Assembly: GCA_020849275.1 (NCBI GenBank)
Contig: JADLGO010000017.1
Location: forward strand, 1 to 64,000
Direction of reading: 5' to 3'
DNA from: Chthonomonadales bacterium
GTDB taxonomy: Bacteria; Armatimonadota; Chthonomonadetes; Chthonomonadales; CAJBBX01
Length of the DNA stretch: 64,000 nt
Shown here: in pieces, positions 171 through 46,935 of the stretch
Position numbering within the stretch: position 1 is the stretch's first letter
Layout of the letters: each line of letters starts with the position of its first letter
The notes under the pieces: generated by a model
The model's database searches: none
What the model was told of the DNA's origin: nothing
Seen by the model: the letters and a program-made list of their open reading frames with translations, nothing else
Translations under genes and position numbers: made by a program

Positions 171-199
171 TTGACAAAGACGGGCCCCTGTGATATGCT
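171..199 (+). promoter_or_regulatory. Sigma-70 promoter of the riboswitch-flgM transcript
   Basis: A perfect -35 box TTGACA lies at 171-176 and a -10 box TATGCT at 194-199, separated by exactly 17 bases. Transcription would start near 206, about 70 bases before the c-di-GMP aptamer. The -35 box lies only about 17 bases from the inferred IS end, so the native sequence upstream of the promoter has been replaced or separated by the insertion. Confidence 0.75.
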
Positions 200-275
200 G
201 TGGCGTGCGCGATGCGCGACCGGGCACCGCGCGCCCTACAGTTCCCGTGTCCGCAGCCGATAATCCGTAACGAAC

Positions 276-392
276 GAAGATGCAAAGGCAAACCCACAGA
301 AATGTGGGGACGCAAAGCTATGGGCCTACCGCGATCGGCCGTCGAGCCCCGGGCCTTACGCCGACCGCAATGGCTGCCAGGTTGCCGTCTCT
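276..392 (+). promoter_or_regulatory. Cyclic-di-GMP-I (GEMM-I) riboswitch upstream of flgM
   Basis: The conserved GEMM-I elements appear in order. The 5' strand is GCAAAGGCAAACC (282-294). It is followed by a short hairpin capped by a GAAA tetraloop. Then come GGGGACGCAAAGC (306-318) and GGGCCTA entering the second arm (322-328). The closing strand with its receptor is ATGGCTGCCAGGTTGCC (370-386). These match the class-I c-di-GMP aptamer consensus in sequence and arrangement. A 7-bp hairpin (403-421, loop CCCAA) lies between the aptamer and the flgM ribosome binding site and may be part of the expression platform. It has no T-run, so control of translation or RNA processing is as likely as termination. 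Whether ligand turns expression on or off cannot be read from the sequence. Confidence 0.9.
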
Positions 393-446
393 CGTGTGGT
401 GCCCCTCGGCCCAACCGAGGGTTCCGCGACGAGGAGGAGGCAAACA

Positions 447-758
447 GTGAAGATTTCGATGCAGGAGGTCGCCCGCATCCTCCGGAGCCAGGAAGTGGCT
501 CCTTCCGCGAGCACTCCGACCAACGGCAACGGCAAGGCGACGGGCACGAACGGCAACGGACACGCGGCTTCAGTGGAGATCTCGGCGGCGGCGCAAGAGG
601 TTCAGCGGGTGAAGCACCTGGTGAACGAGATGCCGGACACGCGCGCGGAGCTTGTCGAGTCGATCAAGGCGCGCGTCGAGTCGGGCGCCTACGCGGTCTC
701 GGGCGAGGAGATCGCGGACCTGATGATCCGCCGGGCCCTCGCCGACCACGTGCGCTAG
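447..758 (+). CDS. flgM: FlgM-like anti-sigma-28 factor
   Basis: A small (103 aa) protein whose C-terminal half (about residues 45-103) has the FlgM pattern: an amphipathic helix with RAELVESIKARVESG, then YAVSGEEIADLMIRRAL. FlgM binds sigma-28 (FliA) and holds back late flagellar genes until it is exported through the hook-basal body. The N-terminal part is low-complexity (repeated TNGNG), like the unstructured export region of FlgM. The start is GTG 447, chosen because GGAGGAGG ends six bases upstream; longer readings from 396 run back into the leader RNA. The gene stands directly behind a c-di-GMP riboswitch, fitting control of the motile/sessile switch. No other flagellar gene is in the window, so the partner sigma factor is assumed. 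Confidence 0.8.
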   Translation: MKISMQEVARILRSQEVAPSASTPTNGNGKATGTNGNGHAASVEISAAAQEVQRVKHLVNEMPDTRAELVESIKARVESGAYAVSGEEIADLMIRRALADHVR

Positions 759-9135: not shown

Positions 9136-9484
9136 GGCCGCCGCGTGAGCCGAGCTCGCCCGCGCAACGATCGCGGGCCCGAGGGACCCGAGACGCCATC
9201 CGTAGGACGCCCGATCGCGGCGGCGGAAGGAACGGCCGCGTGGGCAGCGAACTGATGCGTGAGCGCGCCCAACGATTGCGGCGACCGGGCCGCGCTCGCC
9301 GAGCGGCGGGGGCCACTCGAAGGTGCGCCGACCGACAAGGCACATGGGGCCGAGCGCCCACCGCTCGCAGGCCGCCATCGCGTCACAGCGCGGCGTCGGC
9401 CGCGCGTTGACCCGTTCGGCGGAAGGCACGGAGCCGGGTCGATGGCGGGACGGCCGCGTGGCCGTGGAGGGCGGGACGTTGAGC
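9136..9484. other. Intergenic region between divergent genes
   Basis: About 350 bases without a convincing gene. Open frames exist on both strands only because of the high GC content. I see no riboswitch, tRNA or clear promoter for the plus-strand gene; a TTGACC at about 9410 has no acceptable -10 box. Confidence 0.5.
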
Positions 9485-11824
9485 ATGGTCGCGACGCGTG
9501 TATTTGCAGCGGCAGTGGTCCTGATGACCGCCGCGGTGCTGTGCGCAGCAGCCGACCCGGGAGCGCGGAACGCCTCGGCGCCGACAGACGCGAAGGAGGG
9601 AGGGGCGATGGGAGGGCAGGGCGGCGACGCGGCCGCGCGCCGCGTCATCGAGGGTGTCCCGAGGGTCGGCTTCTACGACGGCGGAAGGCGCCCGCCGGAG
9701 GACGACATGTTCCCCGCCTGTGTGCGGGCGTTCCTGGAGCACCGACGAGAGCCGCGCGACTTCGCCGGGGATCCGCGGAAGGGCGATCCCTGGCACGACG
9801 TGCACGTCTACGCGATGGCGATGACCGGGTCATCGTTTCGCCTGCTGTGGAATCGTGAGCGGCCGCGCGCCGGCCAGTCCGGCATCCTGGCGCTGGCGCC
9901 GGATGCGCTCGAGCCCTTCCGGCGCGGTCTGGCGGCCGTGGGATACGGATCGGACATCCTCCTGCGGCGCGACTTCGCGCGCGAGCTCGGGATCGCCCAG
10001 GAAGGCGACCACTACGAGGCGGAGTTCCGACGCCGAATCTGCGAGAGCATCGACGCCGGCAAGCCCGTGATCGCCATCGGAGTCATCGGTCCGCCGGAAT
10101 GCTGCCTGGTCACTGGCTACGAGGCCGGCGGCGACGCGCTGGTCGGCTGGAGCTTCTTCCAGAACGACCGGGCCCAGAACGCCAGTGTGGAGATCCTGCC
10201 CTCCGGAGTGTTCCGCAAGCGTGACTGGTACCCGGCGACGCGCGGCCTCATCCTGATCGGCGAGCCCCGACCCTTGCCGCCGCTCAGGGAGCGCTGCCGC
10301 CGCGCCCTGGAGTGGGGCCTGCGCGTGATGCGCACCCCACGAGTGCGCGGCGTGGCAGCCGGTCAGGCCGCCTTCACCGCATGGGCCGACTCCCTGCTGG
10401 ACGACGATGCGTACCGCGCCATGGATGCGGCCGCTCTGCGCGAGCGCCACGGCACGCACTGGATGCAGGCCGGCACGCTGGCGGAGGCTCGAGCCTGGGG
10501 CGCCGTGTTCCTGCACCGCGTCGCCGATGCGGAGCCCGAGGTGGGCGAGGACCTGCACCAGGCGGCGCGCTGCTTCGACGCGGAGCACGACCTCGTCTGG
10601 GCCATGTGGGAGTTCACGCGCGCGCAGAGCGAGGAGGAGTCCGCGCGCAAGATGGCCGACCCGGGCATCCGCCGGCGCATCGTGCCGCTCATCCGCCTGG
10701 CGCGCGAGAAGGACGCCGAGGCGGCCGCCTGCATCGAACGCGCGCTGCGCAGGCTTTCCCCGAAGACGCCCGAGCCGCGGGCCAAGGAGCGCGCCGTGCT
10801 GGAGGGCGTGCCGCGCGTCGGCTTTGACCGGCATCTCTCGCCGTTCCCTGGGTCCCTCCACGCGCTCCTGACCTTCCGCGGCGAGAAGGTGTCATACGAC
10901 TACCTGATGGGTGTGACGGGCGCGGCCTTTCGCCGCGCCTGGAACCGCGACGACGGCGGCAATGTGGACCTGATGTACTTCCAGCCGGAACCGCACCGCC
11001 GCGCGATGGACGCGCTGGGCTACGACTTGCGCACGGCCCCGCGAGACAACCGCGCCGCCATGCTGGCGCTGGTGCGCGAGAGCATCGCGCAGGGCAGTCC
11101 GGCGATCGCCTTCGGCGTGATCGGGCCGCCGGAGGCCGGCCTGGTGACCGGCTACGATCGCGGCGGGGACGTGCTGCACGGCTGGAGCTACTTCCAGGGC
11201 GACGCCGGGAGCGGCTACTACGCGCAGCGCGACTGGTTCAAGCGGATGTCGCGCGGCTGCCCGATCGGCGCCCTGCGGGTCGGCGACAAGCTGGAGCATC
11301 GCCGGCCAGAGCGCGAGACCCTCCAGGTCACGCTCGAGTGGGCCGTCGACCTGGCCCGCACGGCCAATCGGCCCGGCATCCCCGACCACGTGTGCGGGCT
11401 CGCCGCCTACGAGGCCTGGGCGGCCGGCATCGAGGTGGACGCCGACTACCCCCGCGACGACCCGAAGGTGCTCGCCACGCGGGTCATGGTGCATGGCGAC
11501 CAGTGCGTCATGCTCGAGGAGCGTCGCAACGCGGCGGCCTACCTTCGCTGCATGGTTGCCGTCGCCCCGGAGGCCGCCGGGCTTCTCACGGGCGCGGCCG
11601 ACCTCTACGATCAGGCCGCAAGCTGCATGGACCGCGTATGGCTCTGGGGCCCCGACATGGGGCCGGCCGTGCAGCGGGCCCTGGCGGACCACGCGACGCG
11701 CGTCGGCATCGCCGCCGGCATCCGCGAGGCCGGCGCGATCGAGGAGCGGGCGGTCGCGCTCCTGGAGAGGGCGCTTGGGGCGATGCGAGACGCGGCCGAG
11801 CCGCGCCACCAGGAGGCGCCATGA
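9485..11824 (+). CDS. Two-module BtrH_N/C39-peptidase-like protein
   Basis: A 779-residue protein with two copies of a ~360-residue module (about 54-430 and 437-779). Each opens with EGVPRVGF, continues with SFRLLWNR or AFRRAWNR and 'EPFRRGLAAVGY'-like text, and has the signature AIGVIGPPECCLVTGYEAGG followed by LVGWSFFQ. This layout resembles BtrH N-terminal/C39-like papain-fold domains, in which a Cys near the N-terminus and a later His form the active site. Copy 1 keeps the early Cys (FPACVRAF), copy 2 does not (FPGSLHALL), and the usual His position reads CC or AG. Protease activity is therefore doubtful, and acyltransfer, binding or another role is possible. Starts: ATG 9485 gives a signal-peptide-like N-terminus (VFAAAVVLMTAAVLCAAA); TTG 9479 has better-spaced GGAGG; an internal ATG 9608 has a very strong Shine-Dalgarno and would give a cytoplasmic form. 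It is translationally coupled to the next gene. Confidence 0.6.
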   Translation: MVATRVFAAAVVLMTAAVLCAAADPGARNASAPTDAKEGGAMGGQGGDAAARRVIEGVPRVGFYDGGRRPPEDDMFPACVRAFLEHRREPRDFAGDPRKGDPWHDVHVYAMAMTGSSFRLLWNRERPRAGQSGILALAPDALEPFRRGLAAVGYGSDILLRRDFARELGIAQEGDHYEAEFRRRICESIDAGKPVIAIGVIGPPECCLVTGYEAGGDALVGWSFFQNDRAQNASVEILPSGVFRKRDWYPATRGLILIGEPRPLPPLRERCRRALEWGLRVMRTPRVRGVAAGQAAFTAWADSLLDDDAYRAMDAAALRERHGTHWMQAGTLAEARAWGAVFLHRVADAEPEVGEDLHQAARCFDAEHDLVWAMWEFTRAQSEEESARKMADPGIRRRIVPLIRLAREKDAEAAACIERALRRLSPKTPEPRAKERAVLEGVPRVGFDRHLSPFPGSLHALLTFRGEKVSYDYLMGVTGAAFRRAWNRDDGGNVDLMYFQPEPHRRAMDALGYDLRTAPRDNRAAMLALVRESIAQGSPAIAFGVIGPPEAGLVTGYDRGGDVLHGWSYFQGDAGSGYYAQRDWFKRMSRGCPIGALRVGDKLEHRRPERETLQVTLEWAVDLARTANRPGIPDHVCGLAAYEAWAAGIEVDADYPRDDPKVLATRVMVHGDQCVMLEERRNAAAYLRCMVAVAPEAAGLLTGAADLYDQAASCMDRVWLWGPDMGPAVQRALADHATRVGIAAGIREAGAIEERAVALLERALGAMRDAAEPRHQEAP

Positions 11825-12978
11825 CTCCGGTGATGATCGAGCCACCCCGCGCCGTGCTGGAGGGCGTGCCGCGCGTCCACTTCTACGATGGCGGCAGCCG
11901 CTGCCCGGAGGACGTGCCGTTCCCTTCGTGCGTGCGCGCCTGCCTCGAGTACATGAACGAGAGCGCGGGCTGCCGCTCCATCGGTTGCCACAACGCCGAA
12001 TACCCGCTCGGCTGCACCTACGCCTGGGTGCTCGCGACCTCGGGAGCCGGGTTCCGATTGCTCTGGAGTCCGGACCGCTGGGACCTGGCCAACGGCGACG
12101 TCATGCTGATGTGCGAGGACCCCGAGGAGCCCTTTCGACGCGGCCTGGCATCGCTCGGGTTCGAGCACAGCTTCGTGATGCGCCAGGATCGCGCGGCCGC
12201 GTTGGGCCACCACGGCGCGGTGGCGAGCACACCGGAGGGCCTCCTCTCGCCCATCGTCGCCAGCGTCCGTGACCGCAGCCGGCCAGCGATGGCCTTCGGC
12301 GTCGTCGGCCCGCCGGAGTGCTGCCTGGTAACCGGCTACGACGACGGCGGCGACACGCTGATCGGCTGGAGCTTCTTCCAGGGCTTCGAGGAGAACGCCG
12401 CCAACCTCGAGACCGAGCCCGGCGGCTACTATCGCAAGCGCGGATGGTTCGACGACACCGTGGCCGTGCTCGCACTGGGGGATCGCCGCGAGCGGCCGCC
12501 GCGGCGGGAGGTCTACCGCGCCGCGCTGGCCTGGGGCGTGAGCCTGATGCGCACGCCGCGAGTTCGGCGGCGCGCCGCGGGCATCGCGGGATTCGATGCC
12601 TGGGCGGCCTCGCTCCTGCGCGATGAGGAGTTCGCGGAGCGGTCCATCGAGGACCTTCGCGCGCGCTACATCGTCCATTACGACGCCGTGGGCACCGTCG
12701 CGGAGGCGCGCTGGTACACGGCGGGCTTCCTGGCCGAGGCCGCGCGCGACTCGGCCGGCATGGCGTCGGCGCTCTACACGGCGGCCTCCTGTTTCGCGGC
12801 CGAGCACGACCTGATGTGGCGCGTGTGGGCCCTGGCCGGCGGCAACGGAGTGTCGGACGAGCACGCGCGCAAGCTCGCCGAGCCCGCCGCGCGACACGCC
12901 ATCGCGGAGGTGCTCCGGGAGTCGCGCGACCTGGACGCTCGCGCCGCCGACGCGCTCGAGCGCGCGCTCAGAGCGTGA
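11821..12978 (+). CDS. Single-module BtrH_N/C39-like protein
   Basis: A 385-residue protein with one copy of the module seen twice in the preceding gene: LEGVPRVHFYDGGSRCPED at residues 14-32, FPSCVRACLEYM with the early Cys, GAGFRLLWSPDRW, GVVGPPECCLVTGYDDGG, LIGWSFFQ, and a C-terminal helical part (TVAEARWYTAGFLAE, CFAAEHDLMWRVW). No signal peptide. The ATG overlaps the stop of the upstream gene as ATGA, with AGGAGG five bases before it. Of the three copies this is the most complete, so it is probably closest to the ancestral form. The function of the family is not established to my knowledge. Confidence 0.6.
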   Translation: MTPVMIEPPRAVLEGVPRVHFYDGGSRCPEDVPFPSCVRACLEYMNESAGCRSIGCHNAEYPLGCTYAWVLATSGAGFRLLWSPDRWDLANGDVMLMCEDPEEPFRRGLASLGFEHSFVMRQDRAAALGHHGAVASTPEGLLSPIVASVRDRSRPAMAFGVVGPPECCLVTGYDDGGDTLIGWSFFQGFEENAANLETEPGGYYRKRGWFDDTVAVLALGDRRERPPRREVYRAALAWGVSLMRTPRVRRRAAGIAGFDAWAASLLRDEEFAERSIEDLRARYIVHYDAVGTVAEARWYTAGFLAEAARDSAGMASALYTAASCFAAEHDLMWRVWALAGGNGVSDEHARKLAEPAARHAIAEVLRESRDLDARAADALERALRA

Positions 12979-21271: not shown

Positions 21272-21278
21272 GAAGTTA

Positions 21279-21352
21279 CTGGTGATGGAGACCACCGAGA
21301 CGACTCTTCGCGTCTGAACCGCCCACGCTCACGGGCTGATGGCTCCTGACTC
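21279..21352 (+). promoter_or_regulatory. Fluoride riboswitch (crcB motif)
   Basis: The aptamer elements are in order. GGTGATGGAGACCACC (21281-21296) is the first stem with its GATGG-type loop. A variable arm GACGACTCTTCGCGTC follows, then AACCGCCC (21317-21324), then GGGCTGATGGCTCCTGAC (21333-21350), which holds the conserved GCTGATG core and the 3' strand. The arrangement matches the fluoride (crcB) riboswitch, and the next gene is the fluoride channel, which makes the call strong. The expression platform between 21353 and the start codon is not clear. Confidence 0.9.
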
Positions 21353-21417
21353 GACGCGACGCGCGCGAGCAGGGGCCTTTCGCGCCTCCGCCTCGAGCGA
21401 TTGAAAGGATGGTCGTC

Positions 21418-21816
21418 ATGTGGTCGAAGTGCCTGGTCGTGGGCCTCGGTGGGTTTCTGGGCGCGAACGCGCGCTACCTCATCGGCGAGTGGGTGTACCG
21501 GAGGCTGGGCGCGGACGGCCACTACAGCACCTTCGCCATCAACGTTACCGGGTCGTTCGTCCTGGCCCTGTTCGCCACCGTGACGCTGCGACCCGCGTGG
21601 AACGAGAGCTGGCGGCTCCTGGTCGCCATCGGCTTCCTTGGCGCCTACACCACGTTCTCGACGTTCGCGTACGAGACGCTCTTGCTGCTCGCGCAGGGCC
21701 GCCTGCTCGCCGCCGCGGGCAACGTGGCCGGCAACGTCCTGCTGGGGCTGGCCGCCGGCTACCTGGGCGTCGTCGCCGCGCGCCCGCTCACCGGGCTGCC
21801 CTGGTGGACGCACTGA
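21418..21816 (+). CDS. crcB: Fluoride channel Fluc (CrcB)
   Basis: A 132-residue four-helix membrane protein that works as an antiparallel dimer to let F- leave the cell. Family boxes: GGFLGANARYLIGEW (first helix and the R-Y-x-I box), INVTGSFVLAL (Asn and GSF on the second helix) and GFLGAYTTFSTFAYE (third helix with the TTFSTF Phe/Thr track that lines the pore). ATG 21418 is chosen because GAAAGGA ends eight bases upstream; the earlier ATG 21409 overlaps that site. Expressed under the fluoride riboswitch just upstream. The 54-base gap to the next gene allows read-through into the dehydrogenase. Confidence 0.95.
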   Translation: MWSKCLVVGLGGFLGANARYLIGEWVYRRLGADGHYSTFAINVTGSFVLALFATVTLRPAWNESWRLLVAIGFLGAYTTFSTFAYETLLLLAQGRLLAAAGNVAGNVLLGLAAGYLGVVAARPLTGLPWWTH

Positions 21817-44820: not shown

Positions 44821-46935
44821 CTACACGATGGCGGCCCCTCCCTCCGGGTCCGCCTCGGCGGCGGCCATGGCCCGCGCCAGGTGGGGCGCCGCGTCGCCCA
44901 GCGCGCGGATCTCGCGGCCCTCGGTGCGCGCGCCGCCCAGCACCAGCCGCCATCTGCTCGCCCCGCTCGCGGACGGCGGCTCGTGGGCCGGCGCGATCAG
45001 CGCCACCGCCCGCCGGATCCTGCCGCACACATCGCCGGCTGTGGCCTCCCCGAGCAGCAGCCAGAACGCCTCGCCCCAGCGCGCGGCCATGTCGTCGGCG
45101 CCACCGTTCTCCAGCAGCGCGCTCTCGATCGCCCGCGCGATCGCCGCCAGGAGCTCCTCGTCCTGCTGCACGCCATAGATGTCGAGCATCGGCGCGGCGC
45201 GGCGCACCTCCGCGCGCGCCACCACGAGCGGCCCTCCGACCGCCAGCCTCGCGGCCAATGCCTCCTCGAATGGCTGCCGCGAGGGCAGGCCGGTCACCGG
45301 GTCGCTGTGACGGCCGCGATTTGCGGAGAGGGTGGTCACCGCCTCCAGCAGCGCGCGCACCGGCACAAGCCCGGCATAGCGCCCGTCACGCAGCACAAGC
45401 ACGTCATCCTGGAAGCGCATCTCGCGTCGGTGCGTCACGCGCATGGCGGCGTCTTCGAGAGGTGTGTCCGCTTCCAGCGCGAGCGGCCGGGGGTCCATCA
45501 GGCGGGCGATGGGCCACTGCAGGCGGTCGGCCCTACCTTCTGTATCGCGCTCAAATCGGTCGCGCGTCACCAGGCCCGCCGCGCGCTCTTCCTCCACCAC
45601 CGCGATGCACTCGACCTCGGCGTTCTTGCCGAATCGATGCGCCACCTGCTCCACCGTAGCGTCGGGCGGCACCGCCACGCCGCGACGCGCCATCGCCCCG
45701 ATGCCATAGCCGAGTCCGGAGGCGCGCCGCCGCCGGTGGGCGCCACGCTCCTCCACGAACTCGCGCACGGCCCGGCGCAAGCCGCGGAAGCCGTTCTCGG
45801 GCTTGCTGAGCAGGTAGCCCTGCCCGAGCGGCACGCCGATCTCGATGACTGTCGCCAGCTCGTCCCAGGTCTCGATGCCCTCGGCGATAAGGGAGGCCCC
45901 GATCTGCGTCGTGTAGCGCACCAGCGTCCCGAGCAGCGCCCGTCTTGGGCCGCTGTTCTCGATGCAGCGCACGAGCGGCCGGCCGATCTTCACGAAGTCT
46001 GGGCGCAGATTGGCGATCGACTCCAGGCTGTTGTAGCCGGCCCCCGCGTCGTCGATCGCGATGAGGAAGCCCTGCTCGCGCTGCTCCTGGATGTACTGCG
46101 CGAGACGCGGGTAGTCAACCACCGCCTGGCGCTCGGTAATCTCCAGCACCACGCGTCGCGGCGAGATGCGGTGCTCGGCGGCCTTCTCGGCCAGCGAGCG
46201 GTCGGCATGATGGTAGTGGGAGAGGCCCTCGGCATCCATGTTGAAGAAGAGGTGGTCGCGCACGCCGGCGCGGGCGGCCTCGGCGAAGCAGCGCTCCTGG
46301 CAGGCGATGTCGAGCCACGAGACGAGACGCGCGCGGTCGGCCGTATCGAACAGGGAGCCCAGCTTGCGAAGCGCGCCCCCCTGCGGTGCGCGGATCAGCG
46401 CTTCGTAGCCGCATACCTGGCCGGTGGCGAGGCTGGCGATGGGCTGGAACTGCGCGCCAAGCCGGCCGTTCACCAGTGTGTCGAGGAGCTCGTCGAGCGC
46501 GGCCAGGTTCTCCTGAAGCCCCTCCACGGGCGCCACGGCGGCGATGGGCAGGATGTGTGGGGGCGAGGCGGCCCGGCGAAGATCGGCGACGGCGACGAAC
46601 CGCCTGCGCAGGCCCTCGGTGAGGGCGCTCACCGTGACCGGATCGAAGGGCCGGCCACTGCGAGGCGTGGCCACTACCGCCGCCGAGCCGTCCTCGAACG
46701 TGAACGCGGTGAGCTCGCACGGCTCCACGAGGACGGCGCGGAGCGCCTCGCGCAGCGCGTCGCCCGGGCACAGGGCGAGTGCCTCGCCGGGCGGCTGGCG
46801 CAACAGAAACGCGATGGAACAGGGCTCAATGGCCTCTATGAGCTGCGCGGCCGAGCCCGCGGGGCGGCGTGGCGCGCCGGGCGAACGGCCGGTCGCGCGC
46901 TCCCCGGGCTCCGGGCGCGATCTGGGTGCGTACAT
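44821..46935 (-). CDS. c-di-GMP phosphodiesterase: EAL, CBS pair, degenerate GGDEF
   Basis: A 704-residue soluble protein. After an uncharacterised N-terminal ~140 residues, the EAL domain (about 150-395) keeps the catalytic set: YEALIR (178-180 EAL), FFNMDAEGL, VVLEITERQ, LIAIDDAGAGYNSLE (DD pair), FVKIGRPL and LIAEGIET. It should cleave c-di-GMP to pGpG. Then come two CBS-like units (about 405-540), with PPDATVEQVAHRF and ADTPLEDAAMRVTHRREMRF, which may bind an adenine nucleotide. The C-terminal GGDEF-type domain (SDPVTGLPSRQPFEEALAAR) has WGEAFW in place of GGDEF and therefore lacks cyclase residues; it may bind GTP or act as regulator. It links to the c-di-GMP riboswitch at 276. Confidence 0.85.
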   Translation of the reverse strand: MYAPRSRPEPGERATGRSPGAPRRPAGSAAQLIEAIEPCSIAFLLRQPPGEALALCPGDALREALRAVLVEPCELTAFTFEDGSAAVVATPRSGRPFDPVTVSALTEGLRRRFVAVADLRRAASPPHILPIAAVAPVEGLQENLAALDELLDTLVNGRLGAQFQPIASLATGQVCGYEALIRAPQGGALRKLGSLFDTADRARLVSWLDIACQERCFAEAARAGVRDHLFFNMDAEGLSHYHHADRSLAEKAAEHRISPRRVVLEITERQAVVDYPRLAQYIQEQREQGFLIAIDDAGAGYNSLESIANLRPDFVKIGRPLVRCIENSGPRRALLGTLVRYTTQIGASLIAEGIETWDELATVIEIGVPLGQGYLLSKPENGFRGLRRAVREFVEERGAHRRRRASGLGYGIGAMARRGVAVPPDATVEQVAHRFGKNAEVECIAVVEEERAAGLVTRDRFERDTEGRADRLQWPIARLMDPRPLALEADTPLEDAAMRVTHRREMRFQDDVLVLRDGRYAGLVPVRALLEAVTTLSANRGRHSDPVTGLPSRQPFEEALAARLAVGGPLVVARAEVRRAAPMLDIYGVQQDEELLAAIARAIESALLENGGADDMAARWGEAFWLLLGEATAGDVCGRIRRAVALIAPAHEPPSASGASRWRLVLGGARTEGREIRALGDAAPHLARAMAAAEADPEGGAAIV

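Follow-up and report, generated by a model that had tools for sequence, protein, structure and literature searches.

Organization of the flgM locus

The window analysed here is a 64,000-nucleotide stretch of DNA from a Chthonomonadales bacterium (contig JADLGO010000017.1, C17 in our numbering, positions 1 to 64,000). It begins at the end of the contig, so the gene ending near position 126 is incomplete. The region that follows carries these features:

171-199, + strand: sigma-70-type promoter TTGACA-17-TATGCT (-35 box at 171-176, -10 box at 194-199)
237-263, + strand: putative sigma-28 (FliA)-type promoter TACAG-N14-GCCGATAA, 12 of 13 positions matching the consensus
274-282, + strand: 5' strand of the P1 helix, ACGAAGAUG, predicted to form a duplex with 386-395
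277-389, + strand: c-di-GMP-I (GEMM-I) aptamer (RF01051, 69.5 bits, E-value 1.5e-11)
382-399, + strand: candidate switching strand, made of the aptamer 3' end and the P1 3' strand (UUGCCGUCUCUCGU...), with two possible partners, the P1 5' strand and the ribosome-binding site
424-443, + strand: ribosome-binding-site arm, with the Shine-Dalgarno sequence (SD) GGAGGAGG at 433-440 and CAA at 441-443, paired with 382-399 in the predicted minimum-energy ligand-free fold
447-758, + strand: flgM, anti-sigma-28 factor, GTG start, 103 aa (PF04316, 57.5 bits; TIGR03824, 52.8 bits)
787-811, + strand: strong G+C hairpin 3' of flgM that lacks a U tract and may mark the end of the transcript
893-1696, + strand: parA (soj), conserved neighbour, probably outside the switch (profile match, synteny)
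1665-2549, + strand: parB, conserved neighbour, probably outside the switch (profile match, synteny)

A preliminary description of this DNA had proposed a consensus promoter, a full GEMM-I aptamer and a flgM gene in direct succession, and all three are recovered. The promoter agrees with the sigma-70 consensus at 10 of 12 positions and is the sole such site in positions 1-1000, where 0.2 are expected. Family-1 relatives have a similar site 77-132 nt 5' of the aptamer, and family 8 has one at 88-113 nt. As with other RF01051 riboswitches, a motility gene carries in its 5' leader a full aptamer that scores far above the gathering cut-off (35 bits). This aptamer is the only copy found in a genome-wide search. 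By sequence-structure match, 277-389 belongs to the c-di-GMP-I riboswitch class, and c-di-GMP binding is predicted. The product of 447-758, the only FlgM in the genome, exceeds the cut-offs of both PF04316 (25 bits) and the NCBIfam equivalog TIGR03824 (40.75 bits). The gene is thus a genuine flgM, whose product is predicted to bind and inhibit sigma-28.

The sigma-28-type promoter, the expression platform, the phylum-wide conservation and the predicted ON direction described below go beyond the preliminary description. Many leaders carry TAAAG-N14/15-GCCGATAA, the sigma-28 (FliA) promoter consensus, 5' of the aptamer; 36 of 60 reach at least 11/13, and most of these sites end 12-34 nt ahead of it. 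In the window, the score of 12/13 was matched by none of 200 shuffles. Genome-wide, the pattern occurs twice, at 237-263 and just 5' of flhA (G000:C52:115147-115173, - strand), and a reversed-pattern control gave no match. Since this second match lies upstream of flhA, flhA may be FliA-driven in this genome. A transcript starting about 7 nt 3' of 237-263 would begin near 270, just ahead of the P1 5' strand at 274. Because a sigma-28-type promoter precedes the aptamer here and in many relatives, FlgM appears to be FliA-autoregulated through the riboswitch leader. The flgM gene of C. difficile is a reported target of its sigma-D.

Flagellar genes and probable c-di-GMP synthesis in the genome

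The genome (4.8 Mb, 99.9% complete) encodes FliA on contig C2 (C2:42150; FliA_WhiG, 242.6 bits, cut-off 189.6). flhA and an flhF-like ORF are found on C52, flgK- and flgL-like ORFs on C24 and a flagellin-type protein on C37. The organism thus has the sigma factor and flagellar genes on which the preliminary description depended. flgM is detached from fliA, flhA and the flgK/flgL-like genes, as that description had held, since these and the flagellin-type gene all sit on other contigs. Eight GGDEF domains are encoded in the genome, so c-di-GMP is likely made in this organism. A weak GGDEF domain is seen within a 724-aa open frame of the window (44920-45309, - strand).

Conservation of the aptamer-flgM arrangement

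We searched 151 Armatimonadota genomes for GEMM-I and FlgM, then fetched and inspected the leaders. GEMM-I is present in 84 genomes and FlgM in 101. In 60 of the 151, this one included, the aptamer lies directly 5' of flgM on the same strand, across 13 families, and an order kept so widely is not due to chance. No conserved gene was found 5' of the aptamer-flgM pair; upstream ORFs vary among relatives. Some genomes (e.g. G002) hold two flgM genes, only one of which has an aptamer. A narrow FlgM alignment scan returned Armatimonadota loci only, its seed pattern favouring close relatives, so that it is no measure of absence elsewhere.

Lineages without the riboswitch often have flgM adjoining flgK. 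Part of the phylum therefore keeps the classical arrangement, with the same FlgM family protein, whereas here flgM stands alone, adjoining parAB and behind a riboswitch. The riboswitch class is known; its target, flgM, is new and conserved. A search of the open-access literature gave no report of riboswitches in Armatimonadota or of GEMM with flgM, nor a case of a GEMM-I riboswitch on an anti-sigma-28 gene.

Predicted expression platforms

Folding predictions place in the window an expression platform that competes with the aptamer, the aptamer 3' end pairing with the SD region. In the aptamer fold, P1 is predicted between 274-282 and 386-395. In the alternative fold, the aptamer-terminal UUGCC pairs with the ribosome-binding-site arm (U382-A443, U383-A442, G384-C441, C385-G440, C386-G439), and the masking helix continues between 388-391 and 434-437 and on to 424. 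This SD-masking pairing is the predicted minimum-energy fold of the window leader, a very stable hairpin of -37 kcal/mol, and 2% of shuffles reach the pairing between aptamer 3' end and SD region.

The 5-bp masking core is intact in 13 of the 18 leaders of the order to which the window belongs (families f1-f3). In nearly all of these leaders the pairing beats most shuffles, with a median p of 0.005 in the window's own family and about 0.03 in f3, the per-leader values not being independent as sequences within a family are related. In two f15 leaders the next masking helix is changed on both sides, at two pairs (CGCU/AGCG for UCUU/AGGA). When P1 is enforced, mean predicted SD openness rises from 0.10 to 0.46, with an increase in 16 of 18 leaders (Wilcoxon p 4e-5, on related sequences). 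The window itself shows a modest rise, from 0.21 to 0.37, and reaches 0.80 with the linker folded alone. In a model that leaves out ligand and tertiary contacts, forming the P1 state carries a large energy penalty, above all in the window, at about 18 kcal/mol. Because of this penalty, the switch would have to act kinetically, and a fold choice during transcription is more likely than one at equilibrium.

Families f8, f19, f20, f34 and f36 show another design. There, the aptamer's own 5' strand AAGGCAAACUCUUCG has its complement in an arm just before a U tract and would pair for example with CUUCGGAGCGUUUGCC-UUUUU, in duplexes of -14 to -22 kcal/mol. In 12 of 13 leaders this complementarity exceeds 99.4% of shuffles or more (p <= 0.006); the remaining leader has a p of 0.033. 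As forming the terminator destroys the aptamer, ligand should give read-through. Two leaders, L114 and L118, have a local hairpin enclosing the U tract, and with ligand bound this hairpin could sequester the arm. SD-masking and terminator platforms are therefore predicted to act with the same sign: c-di-GMP would turn FlgM on and sigma-28 off.

A clear platform was not found in the leaders of f6, f24, f13 and f14. In f6, GUUCUGCC is a possible partner for the SD GGCAGGAU as well as for P1, and pairing with the aptamer end is not separable from chance when compared to shuffles (p 0.19-0.35).

Proposed mechanism and direction of the switch

We consider it probable that this c-di-GMP-I riboswitch gates FlgM synthesis as a genetic ON switch within a FliA feedback loop. 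In the model, transcripts would begin at the housekeeping promoter (171-199) and at the FliA promoter (237-263), the latter starting near 270. Without c-di-GMP, a single long hairpin would form between 382-399 and the ribosome-binding site (424-443), leaving FlgM untranslated and FliA free, and late flagellar genes would fire. When c-di-GMP binds the nascent aptamer, P1 would keep the 3' strand and the ribosome-binding site would be freed; FlgM would then be made and FliA silenced. Since FliA would also transcribe flgM, c-di-GMP would set the gain of a putative negative feedback loop. High c-di-GMP would thus raise FlgM and silence sigma-28, and low c-di-GMP would release the late flagellar genes. 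As a general rule, high c-di-GMP lowers motility, and the ON-switch reading agrees with this rule.

The opposite sign is unlikely. With an OFF switch, c-di-GMP would lower FlgM and free sigma-28, and high levels of the messenger would favour late flagellar genes, against the usual rule. In both readable platforms, moreover, SD masking or terminator formation is predicted for the anti-aptamer fold and not for the aptamer fold. GEMM-I switches of the OFF type do exist: in C. difficile, c-di-GMP binding to Cd1 causes termination ahead of the flgB operon, which includes sigD/fliA (PMC5386303). Cd1 and the RNA described here are alike in that c-di-GMP would lower sigma-28 output through a GEMM-I RNA. 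However, Cd1 is an OFF terminator on an operon with the sigma factor, whereas an ON switch on the anti-sigma factor is predicted here.

In the Actinobacteria, the RsiG-(c-di-GMP)-WhiG system also places sigma output under c-di-GMP control, but the dinucleotide there binds the anti-sigma protein, through the motif E(X)3S(X)2R(X)3Q(X)3D (PMC8325347), in contrast to the mRNA-level control predicted here. Inspection of the 103-aa FlgM shows that the spacing of this motif is absent from its sequence, and direct c-di-GMP binding of the RsiG type was rejected on this ground.

We lean, by a little, towards a broader form of the ON-switch reading, in which much of the phylum times its late flagellar genes by letting c-di-GMP switch on the anti-sigma factor at the mRNA level, and the direction of control stays constant while the RNA device (SD masking or terminator) is swapped between families. 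That the arrangement persists over 13 families, with two or more different platforms whose predicted sign agrees, suggests that FlgM production in response to c-di-GMP is under selection. If true, expression platforms would have turned over while the regulatory logic was conserved, and the RsiG-WhiG protein switch would have its RNA equivalent in this phylum. Known targets of GEMM-I switches are structural, adhesion and early flagellar genes. On an anti-sigma-28 gene, c-di-GMP would act at the late-gene checkpoint and leave the flagellar operons untouched. The locus thereby provides a model of Armatimonadota motility control that experiments can test directly.

Probable flagellar role of FlgM

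A further alternative is that FlgM is no longer flagellar and restrains another sigma-28-like factor, for instance one governing pili or the cell cycle. This would fit the position of flgM and fliA, both away from flagellar operons, and one relative (G012) which has GEMM-flgM and fliA without an FlhA match. Yet of the 31 nearest genomes, 17 have both GEMM-flgM and flhA, 12 have neither and 2 are discordant, so that 29 of 31 agree. This near-perfect co-occurrence, together with the position of the only other sigma-28 pattern match of the genome, upstream of flhA, makes a non-flagellar FlgM quite unlikely.

The parAB neighbourhood and the possible end of the transcript

In the window and in members of f1, f2, f13, f15, f19, f24, f34 and f36, parA-parB lie 3' of flgM on the same strand; in f8, parB is found there. 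This synteny would suit a flgM-parA-parB operon under the riboswitch, coupling c-di-GMP to chromosome segregation. However, of the 18 leaders examined, 12 have a terminator-like site 3' of flgM, a strong one in nine cases, which makes a monocistronic flgM probable in most of them; in the window the strong hairpin at 787-811 stands between flgM and parA. In addition, parAB is on the opposite strand in f3 and was looked for near flgM in f6 and f14 but not found. With terminator-like sites in most relatives examined and the inversion in f3, the operon was rejected as very unlikely.

A parS-like site, TGTTTCTCGCGAAACA, is located at 2551-2566, directly 3' of parB, and in one relative (L108) a perfect parS, TGTTTCACGTGAAACA, is found 3' of flgM. 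The replication origin may be close to the flgM-parAB block.

Ligand specificity and other features of the window

Single-base changes can shift GEMM-I specificity, and some f14 members fit the sister model RF03167 better than RF01051; nevertheless, recognition of another dinucleotide such as cGAMP is highly improbable for the window aptamer, whose best fit within its clan is RF01051, which keeps the consensus AAAGGCAAA core and which occurs in a genome with eight GGDEF domains. The f14 aptamers (L123-L132) are GEMM-I-like, precede flgM and have altered P2 loops, some being nearer RF03167, with linkers of 22-31 nt to the start codon.

Elsewhere in the window, a fluoride riboswitch (21272-21355, + strand; RF01734, 41.7 bits) lies just 5' of a crcB/fluC-like ORF (21409-21816), in the classical arrangement. 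Adjoining ORFs at 9323-12978 (+ strand) contain repeated related segments (VLEGVPRVGF / VLEGVPRVHF) and look like tandem paralogues.
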